Positions 5,290 through 47,848 of a stretch of DNA of 64,000 bases are shown in pieces; positions within the stretch are counted from its first letter, which is position 1, and the number at the start of each line of letters is the position of its first letter. Below the pieces are notes generated by a model. The model did not search any database, was not told the DNA's origin, and saw only the letters and a list, made by a program, of their open reading frames with translations. Origin of the DNA: Phytoseiulus persimilis (Eukaryota; Arthropoda; Arachnida; Mesostigmata; Phytoseiidae); assembly GCA_037576195.1 (NCBI GenBank), contig CM075103.1, positions 2,790,001 through 2,854,000 on the forward strand, written 5' to 3'. The translations under genes and the position numbers were made by a program.

Positions 5290-8200
5290 AGAGACCAGGG
5301 AAGCAGACACTACTTGTCATTTTGCTGCTAGCTCTCGAGATTATGAAGATGCAGAGCAACCGAACAACGAGAGACGAGGTCTCGTTACCATTCCCGTCGG
5401 CCTGCTCGTTCACTGAGACTGAGGGGCACATGTCTTTTGCTTCCCCACAGCGGCTTCCTGAAAAGTTCCGGAGAGATGCAGGAAGGCCACGGAATGAACC
5501 GGAGGAGTGACCGGGCTTTTGACCCGCTCTTACCCCACTGAGTGTCCCCGCGTGATTGGTGTTGTGGAGTTCTCGGTGTAGATACGACCGCCGAGAAGTT
5601 TTTTTTCCCTGTCTTGGTCCGCCGTGAACCTCCGCGGAGAGCTCCGGAGCTCGCCATCGTGGACTGGAGATCGCGGACTGGAAATAGGAGTCCGAGTCGC
5701 GCTCCCGGGCACAGAAATAGTAAAGTGCTCGGGCTGTCCTGCGGACATACACTCCCGCCGCCGTGGTGGCTGACAGGAGACCGGAGTGGGGGGCGAGTGT
5801 CTTCCCGCCGTTCCGCCGTTGACGACTTGAATGCAGCTTTCCGCGTGAAAGAACTGCAAGTGCATGCCAACCGTCGCTCCGTACCTGCATTTGTCTCATC
5901 GTCGCACTCGCAGCGAAAGCAGTTGCCGTAGCGGCGAAGCGAAGAAGACGAAAACAAAGCGCGCACCGGTCCGACCCATAGAAGAAAGACGATCCAATGA
6001 AGGGATTCATCATCCATCCCCGCTCGCCCGCCGGTCTTGGTAGGGAAGTCCACGCAATGACGCAGCGTCTGGGACGGAACACAAAGCGCAACGGAGACTG
6101 GGAACGATGGCAGGAGGAGAGGAATCCGGGAGGCAGCTCCGACATCGCGGCGCGGTTCCAAAGATACGAGAGTATGCCCGAGACAGAGCGTGCAGTGGTG
6201 GGAGAACCATTCCACTCGGGAAAACCGCTGGAGCACGGGTTGACTTAGAGCTCCGTATTCGGCTAGTTTGAGAGGCTTTCCGCCGGAGTCTAACTCGTCC
6301 GTGAGGAATAGGGGGAAGGGGTCCTGAAAGTGCGCATGCTTGCGAGGCGGCGTAAGGAAGCGGGCCGCTCAAGGCCGCCACGACCACCGACAACGAAGGA
6401 CGACGATGCAGCACAAAGATGAAAAATGAAACAAGATCCCGATTAGGATGGACTGCTCTGCCAGCACTTTCACCCGACCATCTAGCCAACAGTCAGTGAA
6501 CTATTCAGTGAGCTCTCTAAATAACTGGTTGGGCAAACCTCGCCAACAAATTGTCTGATGCTCGAAAAGCGGAAATCCAGCGTGGGAGCTTCCCTGTATC
6601 CTCAGACTCCGGACAGGAGGGTTGTTTCTCTCGGGGATCCACGGCAGTGTAGAGTAGAGCAGTTCGTCTTAATCACATCGACAACTTTCAACATTCCGGA
6701 AATCTACCTGGGCCTCCACATGGACTCTGTGGACGCCCATACAGATGAACATGAGGGACATGCGGTCGGTATAACCCCACGGTTGTTTAATCACCAGACT
6801 TCTGGTGGCTCTCGCTCTAAAACTGTGGCATGAGCCGCATCGCGGATATTCCCTTCTTGCCGCACAGAGAAAGAAAGAGAGAGAGAGGGAAAAAAAAGGA
6901 TACCCAATGTACGTTGAACAGTGTGGAAAAGCACCAGTTAGAGTGTACATTAAGTCTTCCAGAATTGAGTGCCCGTCTTTGAAATTGGAACCGTGCATGA
7001 TTCCAGTTCCTACGTATGTACTTTGCAAAAACCTACTTTTGCAACACTTTGTGGCGTAGAACACCGGAAGACAGACACTACGGGCGCCCGAGCAGTGTGA
7101 GAGACGAGCGAACGGAAGCAGACGCGTATCTCCGGGAGCCCACTTTGTGATTCGGGTGGGTCCCGCCTGGCCTCGTCTTTTCCTTAGTCTTTGGGCGTGT
7201 ACGGCTTGAACAGCGCTACTGTTTCGTCCACTTAAATATGATACCGTTACGACTAATAGAGATGAACAACAGAGTATCTGACCATCGGCAGATACTTGCG
7301 ACCGGATAACTACCGCGCTTGCGACACGCACAACAAACCCGCGTAATGAACATCGCTGAAGACCGCTTCACCACACTGGTGTTCAAGTTCGTCCCCCTTC
7401 GGCCGATGGGCGGACGGTCATTGCAACGAGCGCGTCTCTCTGCACTTGTTTCTTGTCTCGTTCTTTCGCCTACTTCTTGTTGTGTCCCGTCAAGCAGCCT
7501 CTTACGCGTAGATGTAGACCCGGGTTGCCCGGTCAACTAGCTAACGCAATCAACGGCTCCCAGCCGAACCCGGATAACTTTCCTCTCACACGACAGATTC
7601 AACCGACCGAGAAACCCCTCTCCTCTGTTCTCCCTTTTCCACCAAACGTGCTGACCGTCTCAATGGCTCCTTCCAGCAAACATTTGGGGTCTGAATAGAT
7701 TTGTTTGGACTAAGCCTCCTGTTCTATATTTGAGCTGACCCATAGAACGGCCGCTTCATCCCCTTCAACATCTGCGGCAGATGTGAGCAACTCCTTTGCA
7801 CAACCGTCGGCACAACAGAAAGTCGAATCCGGCGTGAGTTATATTTAACAATGAAACCGGACTCGACCTTCAGTCCCGTACCACGCGCAGCTGGCGCAAT
7901 CGATCACTGTAGAACCCGACACGCAACTTATTCGCGGCCTTGGTACTCTAAAAGGCCGGATCTATCAGAGAACTTACTGTTGACAGATTTTTGATCCGAG
8001 AGTTCAGACAGTAGAGGATCTTCCGATAACCAGTCATAATGACCCAGTAAATGGTTCACGCAGCGCGAGCATTCGGAGTCGACGAAGTTGTTCTTGAATG
8101 GTTCCGGAGATCGAAACGACCGCTCAAATGTTGGCTTCCATCCCCTGATCTTCTACCGTGCATGAATGGACTCAGACGCCGAGCCACGAGTTTTCTGCTC

Positions 8201-22339: not shown

Positions 22340-23115
22340 CGACCAACCTGTCACCGGCAGGCCCTGACCTCGTCCCGTCCGCGCCTCTACCGATTGTGAG
22401 CTCTGGAACCAAATGAGAGCTGAAGATACGGGGACGGAATGAATTATTCGGCAAGGGAACGAAAACTCTCGATGATATTAACCCACAACATGTACGTTCC
22501 TTCGTTTGTTACGGTGCATGGTTATTTCGCCCTACAGTAACATGCACTCAATAGCGGGAACCCAGGATCGTGCGCAGGTGCATGTGTGTCGAAGGCCAGA
22601 CTTCAAAGGCCATTATGCTATCCCAGTGTTCCTCTATTCATTCGCAAACTCCACTCCAACCAGCTGACTCATCTGTCAGCCTGTCATCAACGGAATTCCC
22701 CGCATTTGCAGGAAACTACTGACAGTTTTGGTGGAGGTCTCGGCCGTTGTCTTCTCAGGTTGCAGGACGTTTTTTTTCCAGCAGGCTCCCTCAAGAATCG
22801 GTAGTACATATTCCCTTTCCTGAGTCAGGAAAAGGTGTGCGTGCAGCTTCTGCCCATGGCCCGGGCGCAAACCTCGACACCGTCGAGTCGAAAGCTCGGC
22901 AATCGCCCCTGACAACTTCCCCTATCGAGGGAATATTTGACTTCCGATTCAGGGCTTGTCGGAGATGGTATGGTCAGGCGTTCCAAAGCCACCAACGGTC
23001 ATTAACGGTCACTTCCCGGTGCCCTCTCCCACACGGATTCTAACGGGAGAATTCGTTTCTGAACAGATGAACGGTGAACACTGAAACGAATATTGAGACC
23101 GCCCGCTGAACTGAC

Positions 23116-23602
23116 CTTTTGCCGGAGTGTAGATGTTCAGGAACAGACAGTCTTCCGACTGGTTGACAAGGTGACGGGAAATTTTCTTGAGGAACTCGAC
23201 ACGAGCAAGCGGCATCTTTTGTGTTGCTTGCGCTGCTGTCTCATTGCTGTCAATGGGGATTTTCTGCGGGCACACGGGTCCGAAGTGATCCGCCTCTCGA
23301 ACGTCTTCCCAATGAGGGGAATTCATCGGCGGGAGGAACCGCAGCGTGCCGATCGGCGGCGAGACGTAAGGGATCCCTAAGAACACTTCCACAGGCTGTA
23401 GCGTGATGCCGAACTTCGATTCCGGTAAGACGACTCTGCCGCGTAATTTCCCGTAATTCGTTTTCACGATCCGCTCACTCGGACGCCAGCCTTGGAACAC
23501 TGGGTGTGGAGGAGGTGAAGACGCTCCACTGGCGCCGGGGGGTTGCGACGTCCCGGTGACCATCGCAGCTCCGACGAGTACGATGAGTATTTCCAATCTC
23601 AT
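23116..23602 (-). CDS. Neuroligin-like protein, first coding exon
   Basis: Neuroligins are postsynaptic adhesion proteins with a catalytically dead cholinesterase-like ectodomain that binds neurexin. This exon encodes 162 residues. Residues 1-17 (MRLEILIVLVGAAMVTG) form a signal peptide, and a Pro/Ser/Gly-rich linker runs to about residue 35. The esterase-fold N-terminus follows: TNYGKLRGRV, VEVFLGIPYVSPPIGTLRF, the first disulfide Cys in FGPVCPQ, and SEDCLFLNIYTPAK with the partner Cys. NET and NQS are possible N-glycosylation sites. The exon ends at AAAAG|GTCAGT, a good donor, in phase 1. The frame stays open past the donor, but that extra sequence does not look like the family. An upstream in-frame Met at 23659 is possible; I chose 23602 because it places the signal peptide at the N-terminus. 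Later exons (GxSxG-equivalent elbow, transmembrane segment) are not seen and should lie beyond position 1. Another esterase-like adhesion molecule is less likely because the IYTPAK region reads as neuroligin. Family assignment comes from memory, not from a search. Confidence 0.88.
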
Positions 23603-23659
23603 GTCGAGAGCCGTTCTGCGGTAGGTTTGGCGTTCTCGGAGGACTAGCACGCTTTCCAA

Positions 23660-46307: not shown

Positions 46308-46323
46308 TTTACACTTGCTAACT
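46308..46323. repeat. Left 16-bp target-site duplication
   Basis: TTTACACTTGCTAACT here is repeated exactly at 47833-47848, bracketing the retroposon between them. Confidence 0.85.
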
Positions 46324-46515
46324 TTTGTTTTCCGGCTGAACCTCTCAGCCAGCCCTCAGAAGTGTCCCGGAATCACCTTTCGGTATTGCTTCAGTGACAC
46401 TCCCTATCGCCTCGCAAATCCCATTGCGGGCGGTGGGCATGGGTCTTAAGATGGTTCAGATTTAATTCTGATATAAATTAAATCCTCTTTTTCTATATAT
46501 ATAAAAATCCAGGGT

Positions 46516-46547
46516 CTGTTTGTTTGTTTGTTTGTTTGTTTGTTTGT
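46516..46547. repeat. (GTTT)n microsatellite
   Basis: About seven uninterrupted GTTT copies, preceded by TATATATAAAAATCCAGGGT, inside the retroposon on the 3' side of the minisatellite (minus-strand sense). Confidence 0.9.
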
Positions 46548-46629
46548 CCTCAATAGGCTCCTCCGGTATTGATCGGATCGACTTGGAACAAACTGCATAA
46601 TGTAGCGCGGCTCTCCGGGAAGGACATAG

Positions 46630-47545
46630 GCTCTGGAGGGGTGATTCTGGGAGCGATCTGGCCATTACTCTCCTACTCTGGAGGGGTGATTCCGGTATCA
46701 ATCTGGCCATTACTTTCCAACTCTGGAGGGGTGATTCCGAGGCCAATCTGGCCATTACTTTCCAACTCTGGAGGGGTGATTCCGAGACCAATCTGGCCAT
46801 TACTTTCCAACTCTGGGGGAGGGGTGATTCCGGTACCAATCTGGCCATTACTTTCCAACTCTGGAGGGGTGATTCCGAGGCCAATCTGGCCATTACTTCC
46901 CAACTCTGGAGGGGTGATTCTGGGAGCGATCTGGCCATTACTCTCCTACTCTGGAGGGGTGATTCCGAGGCCAATCTGGCCATTACTTCCCAACTCTGGA
47001 GGGGTGATTCTGGGAGCGATCTGGCCATTACTCTCCTACTCTGGAGGGGTGATTCCGGTATCAATCTGGCCATTACTTTCCAACTCTGGAGGGGTGATTC
47101 CGAGGCCAATCTGGCCATTACTTTCCAACTCTGGAGGGGTGATTCCGAGACCAATCTGGCCATTACTTTCCAACTCTGGGGGGGGGGGGTGATTCCGGTA
47201 CCAATCTGGCCATTACTTTCCAACTCTGGAGGGGTGATTCCGAGGCCAATCTGGCCATTACTTCCCAACTCTGGAGGGGTGATTCTGGGAGCGATCTGGC
47301 CATTACTCTCCTACTCTGGAGGGGTGATTCCGGTATCAATCTGGCCAGTTCTTTCCAACTCTGGAGGGGTGATTCCGAGACCAATCTGGCCATTACTTTC
47401 CAACTCTGGGGGGGGGGGGTGATCCCGGGACCAATCCGGCAATTACTTTCCAACTCTGGAGGGGTGATTCCGGGACCAATCTGACCATGCTTCTCCGAAT
47501 CTAGAGGGGTGATTACGACACCAATCTGACCATTCTTCTCGAGAC
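46630..47545. repeat. 45-bp minisatellite, 20 units, with higher-order order
   Basis: The unit is roughly GGAGGGGTGATTCCGAGGCC AATCTGGCCATTACTTTCCA ACTCT. I count 20 GTGATT/GATT-bearing units. Sub-types differ at the six to eight bases after GATT. In order the variants run TGGGAGCG, GGTATCA, GAGGCC, GAGACC, GGTACC, GAGGCC; then TGGGAGC, GAGGCC; then the same six again; then TGGGAGC, GGTATC, GAGACC and degraded units. As 45 is a multiple of three and the unit has no stop in some frames, long repetitive open frames arise on both strands (repeat GGVIPRPIWPLLSNS, or ELESNGQIGLGITPP on the minus strand). I regard these as non-coding. Two G runs, near 47180 and 47410, vary the spacing. Confidence 0.92.
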
Positions 47546-47744
47546 CATGATGCTGAAAAAGTGAAGAGAGAGGAAAGTGCCTCGATTCCAGGTCGGAATC
47601 CTTCCGAGAATCGGTGGCCACTACCGAAGGTCTCATGATCTTACATGTAAGGCAATGTGTGTCTGTCAGCAGTAGACTCCCGAAGCAAGGGACGGGTCGG
47701 CCAGCGTAGTCGGCCGAAGGCCGGCTAGTACCAAATAAGAAATT

Positions 47745-47832
47745 TGTTGTCCCGGCCGGGGATCGAACCCGCGATTGCTAGCTTAGCGTGGCACCCAAGG
47801 CGTTGGTTTATGCCACACGGCCAACGAGCCGG
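47745..47832 (-). other. tRNA-derived pol III promoter (SINE head)
   Basis: On the minus strand the A-box-like GGCCGTGTGGCATAA (about 47822-47808) and B-box GGTTCGATCCC (47770-47760) sit inside a tRNA-like T-arm. Spacing fits internal pol III promoters. The mismatched acceptor stem argues against a functional tRNA. Confidence 0.65.
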
Positions 47833-47848
47833 TTTACACTTGCTAACT
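47833..47848. repeat. Right 16-bp target-site duplication
   Basis: An exact copy of 46308-46323, immediately outside the tRNA-like head of the retroposon. Confidence 0.85.

Follow-up and report, generated by a model that had tools for sequence, protein, structure and literature searches.

Satellite repeats carried by rolling-circle transposons have been described in several animals. In the oyster, satellites are borne by the Helitron/Helentron element Cg_HINE (PMC7492417; also PMC8268682), DINE-1 in Drosophila and a HINE in a predatory mite are described as carrying satellite repeats (PMC4067079), and Helitron satellites are on record for C. elegans (PMC4595182). Associations between Helitrons and satellites have been reviewed (PMC12628747), and arrays bounded by a Helitron end at one edge only are likewise on record. 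In Fusarium, FoHeli has been reported to insert into itself and to have multiple 5′ termini (PMC5148889), and truncated plant Helitron arrays with many 5′ ends and one 3′ end were described by Xiong et al. (as summarized in PMC12628747).

Here, we describe a locus in the window, the whole stretch of 64,000 nucleotides of the Phytoseiulus persimilis assembly that was analyzed. We put the probability at roughly 95% that this locus arose in two nested events, with a SINE inserted first and a Helitron carrying a 45-bp satellite array entering that SINE later.

Architecture of the locus and class of the insert

The sequence TTTACACTTGCTAACT occurs exactly twice in the window (46308..46323 and 47833..47848) and forms a perfect 16-bp repeat that encloses 1509 bp and is read as the target-site duplication of the SINE. 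An earlier note on this DNA had claimed a 16-bp duplication around 1509 bp, and its coordinates were borne out exactly. Inside the two copies lie the two parts of the SINE, both on the minus strand: the 3′ part, with body and A-rich tail (46324..46491; 97.6% to the SINE of L017), and the 5′ part, with a head that contains the B-box-like sequence GGTTCGATCCC (47729..47832; 98.1% to the same SINE). The A-rich tail, which had also been noted before, is visible by eye. In L017, the SINE is unbroken and about 275 bp long; its bases 106-275 match the window at 46323-46492 and its bases 1-106 at 47729-47834. The window SINE is split at 46491/47729 by an insert with Helitron ends, and the 1509 bp comprise 272 bp of SINE (168 + 104) and 1237 bp of insert.

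This insert (46492..47728, plus strand) is a non-autonomous element that lies between a T and a T of the SINE, its insertion having left no duplication beyond one ambiguous T. Its 5′ end (46492..46631) starts with TC at 46492 (TCTATATATATAAAAATCC) and includes a (GTTT)n run at 46517-46547, which is followed by the satellite array (46631..47534, plus strand). TRF assigned this array a 45-bp period, 19.8 copies, and 85% matches, and it reported the run at 46517-46547 as (TGTT)n, in line with the earlier description of a 45-bp array plus (GTTT)n inside the element. The 3′ subterminal region and terminus (47535..47728, plus strand) contain a predicted hairpin at 47707-47727, and the last bases are CTAG (47725-47728). 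The hairpin has a 9-bp stem, abuts the end, and is kept in copies; its z score of -0.90 indicates that it is not unusually stable. Judged by its TC 5′ end, 3′ hairpin, terminal CTAG, and lack of a target duplication, the insert is a Helitron. Elsewhere in the window, an open frame on the minus strand (23009-23659) resembles a neuroligin/carboxylesterase exon by eye. A search for the telomere repeat (TTAGG)8 gave 0 matches.

Copies at other loci have the same boundaries. For the 5′ end, the best 40 of 1397 candidates were scored. The match starts at position 46492 itself in 26 of the 39 scored loci other than the window; in the remaining ones it starts no more than 6 bases before this position, so none reaches farther into the SINE side. 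No match across the 3′ junction was found in the 39 other loci scored for it. One of the 39 3′-region loci (L010, C4:11.62 Mb) has part of a SINE at a distance of 25 bp and is a second Helitron-in-SINE. In the merged islands, the 3′ end is CTAG in 22 of 22 counted cases, and the next base is T in all 22. Four of these ends were fetched through the array (C1_41054844, C3_29061771, L089, and L090) and the other 18 for other reasons; two (L056 and L089) match the last 69 bp only. Matches that stop short of the end, at 50-58 bp or less (L009, L033, L034, L044, and L052/L086), were excluded from this count, as were the incomplete 5′ ends in L043 and L077/L078 from the 5′ count.

There are 47 near-complete 5′ ends, 29 of which lead into the array within 450 bp and 16 into another 5′ end; one meets the locus edge and one leads elsewhere. 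Successive 5′ ends of this kind (16/47) are found in L053, L057, L067, L071, L074, L082, and L086, where the next one lies 171-196 bp past the previous one. In L086, the 3′ end of the inner copy is followed by TCTATCATAAAAATC, as expected from nesting at one internal A^T site, and chains of this type are also compatible with tandem duplication. Forty-five 5′ ends start exactly at the first base, in 24 self-related and 21 non-self contexts. Within the self-related group, 13 follow ..CCTATACA of the element's own 5′ module, 8 abut its own 3′ end, 2 follow a decayed form of its own motif, and 1 lies two bases from its own 3′ end. The base before the non-self 5′ ends is A in 17 of 21 cases, T in 2, and G in 2, the window copy being among the T cases.

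The flanks and termini bear on the class of the insert, which could be a Helentron or HINE instead of a canonical Helitron. TT is the target preference given for Helentron/DINE-1, and the hairpin of canonical Helitrons is placed about 11 bp from the 3′ end (PMC4067079); the T^T site of the window copy and the hairpin that abuts its end would both fit a Helentron, as would the microsatellites and tandem repeats that the same source describes in HINEs of the mite Metaseiulus occidentalis. However, the ends are TC...CTAG, A precedes most of the non-self 5′ ends, and no endonuclease family is among the Pfam matches at an E value of ≤0.001 in the long frame of one Rep-bearing relative, L087. The canonical termini TC and CTRR are present (CTAG in all counted 3′ ends; CTGG in L087), and the Rep and PIF1-like helicase of autonomous canonical Helitrons are seen in L087 (PF14214 and PF05970). 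On this evidence, we consider the assignment to Helentrons unlikely and refer to the insert as a Helitron.

The 45-bp array and Rep-bearing relatives

A same-strand array lies within 4 bp before each of the 22 counted Helitron 3′ ends in the merged islands. The same variant pair of terminal units, counted by eye, precedes 18 of 20 full 3′ ends, the window included; both exceptions are in C2_20271367 and represent one shared upstream sequence. The order of units in the window array is ABCDEFAFABCGEFAHGIJ. A segment of roughly 190-230 bp, present between the 5′ end and the array in most other copies, is missing from the window copy. Since the array precedes all counted 3′ ends and the terminal pair is shared, the array came with the Helitron, although part of its order may be local.

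Growth of the array at the window locus after insertion, rather than its arrival with the Helitron, would account for the unit words BCD, CDE, and AFA, which occur only in the window among the arrays compared, and for an exact repeat of a 180-bp block (46631-46810 = 46994-47173), which points to some rearrangement here or in an unsampled parent copy. Such an origin for the array as a whole is nevertheless quite improbable in the face of its presence at every counted 3′ end and of the shared terminal pair. The unit words ABC and FAB also argue against it, as they recur in four other islands (one each on C1 and C3, and two in a single region of C4), all four fetched for their likeness to the start of the window array. 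Arrival with the Helitron, followed by limited local change, is thus the reading that we retain. The array would be an old constituent of the Helitron family, Rep-bearing members included, that travels with the copies and may change in length by unequal exchange or slippage.

Pieces of the array are also present in seven loci fetched through the SINE (L008, L009, L010, L021, L033, L034, and L038). Among these loci, none of them selected for Helitron ends, L010 alone has both full ends, within 3.1 kb, while L009, L033, and L034 have no more than the 50-58 bp of the 3′ region nearest the array. L086 has a short piece of the 3′ region (positions 16-58; 5863-5905) after the array and before the Rep frame. 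The same arrangement, in which the array is followed only by up to 58 bp of the array-side 3′ region, is seen in L086, L052, L009, L033, L034, and L044. Where the array is not accompanied by full Helitron ends, the locus may represent a Rep-bearing relative, a decayed one, or a free array. These observations suggest that the short Helitron copies are internal deletions of Rep-bearing ones.

In places, the array may have expanded to tens of kilobases next to the 3′ end of a Helitron. On C3, the listed matches extend over at least about 26 kb (32.849-32.876 Mb), and on C4 over at least about 13 kb (5.784-5.797 Mb); the interiors were read in part (L044-L046). At its right edge, the C3 array meets the final 69 bp of the Helitron 3′ end (L089), and no 5′ end was matched at its left edge (L088). 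The C4 array has a full Helitron 3′ end on the left (L090), with an array piece in inverted orientation and part of the 3′ region at its right edge (L044).

The profile PF14214 has 101 matches in the genome, and three Rep loci were taken at 10 kb, L085 and L086 on account of a Helitron 5′ end nearby and L087 on account of its long frame. Both L085 and L086 have the order 5′ end, array, Rep frame, all in one orientation. The L085 5′ end lacks its first 8 bases and the Rep frame there runs into N letters; that of L086 consists of two overlapping pieces. In L087, the stretch begins inside the array, which is followed by a stop-free frame of 1951 codons and then by the same terminal hairpin as in the window, with CTGG; the 195 bp of the 3′ subterminal region do not match. 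This frame contains the domains Helitron_like_N (PF14214; 2.1e-61), PIF1 (PF05970; 4.5e-53), and Pif1_2B. No Rep-bearing element among the three loci has both ends.

Probes of 350 bp taken 3.1-3.5 kb upstream of five more Rep domains contained the array in four cases (L092 was negative, and half of the L094 probe is inverted), and it was found in neither of two probes from the lower-scoring PF14214 group, a group defined by score and not by tree. The array is therefore upstream of Rep in 7 of 8 loci, which represent 8 of the 9 best-scoring PF14214 places, with C3:38525806 left out. From the shared array and terminal hairpin, we infer that L087 may mobilize the window Helitron, as its candidate autonomous partner.

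Close to where the Rep frame begins, L085 (4634-5431), L086 (4354-4950), and L087 (2689-3767) contain tandem repeats of 69 bp, and those of L085 translate as repeats of about 23 residues. A second tandem array, with 28 units of 72 bp, lies downstream of the Rep frame in L085 (1-2021).

A tentative and rather unlikely idea is that the 45-bp array serves a function in the Rep-bearing Helitron, such as that of a long promoter or replication region placed between the 5′ end and the Rep/helicase gene. If so, selection on the transposon would favor keeping and lengthening its satellite DNA, with the seeding of satellites as a by-product.

The SINE and the order of insertion

Copies of the SINE were collected with queries from its two ends. 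The tail query gave 1162 first-look candidates and the head query 659; past the best 40 of each query these totals are unscored, and all 40 scored in each case matched, the 40 tail copies being 99-100% alike. The merged sample of 74 islands (259 kb) is non-random, as it consists of the best hits to the SINE tail and head, the array, the 3′ region, the 5′ end, and Rep. In these islands, 36 SINE copies have both ends, and 34 of them are unbroken; the two split copies are those of the window and L010. The break at SINE base 106 is found in the window copy only, and 5 of 6 further, partial SINE hits run unbroken across this base. The 34 unbroken copies thus provide empty-site evidence for the Helitron insertion. 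In L010, the SINE break lies at about 132-135, where a further member of the same Helitron family sits in an A^T site.

A script search found an exact end repeat of 11-17 bp in 33 of the 34 unbroken near-full copies, with none for L023 and a doubtful one for L008, where the repeat lies inside a tandem array and 32 bp away. The copies in L012 and L013, separated by 1.6 kb, have the same flanks and do not count as independent, reflecting a local duplication of the locus. Four of the 34 unbroken copies (L010, L034, L008, and L021) are located within the 45-bp array or immediately next to it, and in L010 and L034 the SINE duplication begins at the same (A)GATTGG of the 45-bp unit. In this small, non-random sample, the array is possibly a hot spot for SINE insertion.

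Together with the exact 16-bp repeat of the window, the repeats around other SINE copies uphold the earlier reading of the outer element as a retroposon with an intact target duplication. Its SINE features are short length, many copies, target duplications of its own, and an A-rich 3′ end. tRNA-derived SINEs are short elements with a B-box head, an A-rich tail, and target duplications. The window SINE is like them in its 272 bp, B-box-like head, A-rich tail, 11- to 17-bp duplications, and hundreds of first-look candidates and unlike them in that its head has no tRNA fold recognizable to ARAGORN or Rfam. Neither the window nor any of 31 SINE-bearing loci yielded a tRNA with ARAGORN, and cmscan on the SINE head gave no tRNA match at an E value of ≤10, the only match being mascRNA (12.1 bits; E value, 4.2). 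These searches gave no support for a tRNA identity of the head, and the tRNA-like character proposed earlier is weakly supported, by the B-box-like GGTTCGATCCC recognized by eye.

Because the Helitron lies inside the SINE, it came later. LINE-type target-primed reverse transcription is the mode of insertion that the anatomy of the locus and the other copies suggest for the 272-bp SINE, and it would have left the 16-bp duplication. The non-autonomous Helitron, presumably moved by a Rep/helicase-encoding relative, would then have entered by rolling-circle insertion between two T residues of the SINE, a mode suggested by its ends, without making a duplication.

With a pattern of 23 specified bases and as many as 3 mismatches allowed, the junction between SINE head and Helitron has a single occurrence in the 180,977,233-base assembly, the one in the window. 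This pattern replaced a shorter one with only 5 SINE-side bases, which had hit 20 places at up to 1 mismatch, 5 of them exact. The search covered the head side, and the tail side rests on the 5′ end matches of the 39 scored loci. As the head/Helitron junction is unique, nothing indicates that SINE and Helitron moved together as one composite.

The reading of the earlier note, that head, array, and tail are one long SINE that was reverse transcribed as a whole and breeds satellites, has in its favor the perfect 16-bp duplication around the entire composite but can be dismissed, because the head/insert junction is single in the assembly, 34 of 36 SINE copies have nothing between head and tail and L010 is split at another SINE position, and the insert has bounded copies of its own elsewhere. 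Where head and tail do occur together elsewhere, in the 34 unbroken copies, no array lies between them, and the array is found without SINE head or tail beside all of the counted Helitron 3′ ends, so that the locus is a nested insertion and not one element. The idea that a mobile element carries satellite DNA around the genome holds in part: a mobile element does spread this satellite, and the carrier is the Helitron, not the SINE. The proposed SINE that breeds satellites is thereby removed, and the satellite is assigned to a Helitron family.

Comparison with known satellite-bearing Helitrons

Helitron-borne satellites are already known, and the window Helitron is a new family of that kind. 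This one genome contains several stages: elements that have both Rep and the array, non-autonomous copies of short length, chains joined head to tail, and arrays that are spread over about 13 and 26 kb and have a Helitron 3′ end at one edge. The growth of a transposon into a satellite could be tested here through array length, unit order, and relative age.

As the oyster, Drosophila/mite, and C. elegans systems are described in the cited accounts, the family resembles them in having dispersed, satellite-like arrays bounded by the ends of a rolling-circle transposon, and it shares with them the lack of a target duplication and a single orientation of the array relative to the ends. The unit is 45 bp in the window versus 140-180 bp in the oyster, for which the longest array given is 29 units (PMC7492417), and the spread over about 13 and 26 kb of listed matches is unlike what those accounts give for the named systems. 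The window Helitron has TC/CTAG ends and Rep-bearing relatives with the array upstream of Rep, whereas the oyster authors state that they could not relate their elements to autonomous ones. Repeated 5′ ends and 3′-to-5′ head-to-tail junctions are shared with FoHeli and the plant arrays; unlike in those systems, as far as the cited descriptions go, 13 of the 45 exact 5′ ends follow the one internal motif, and 8 abut the element's own 3′ end.
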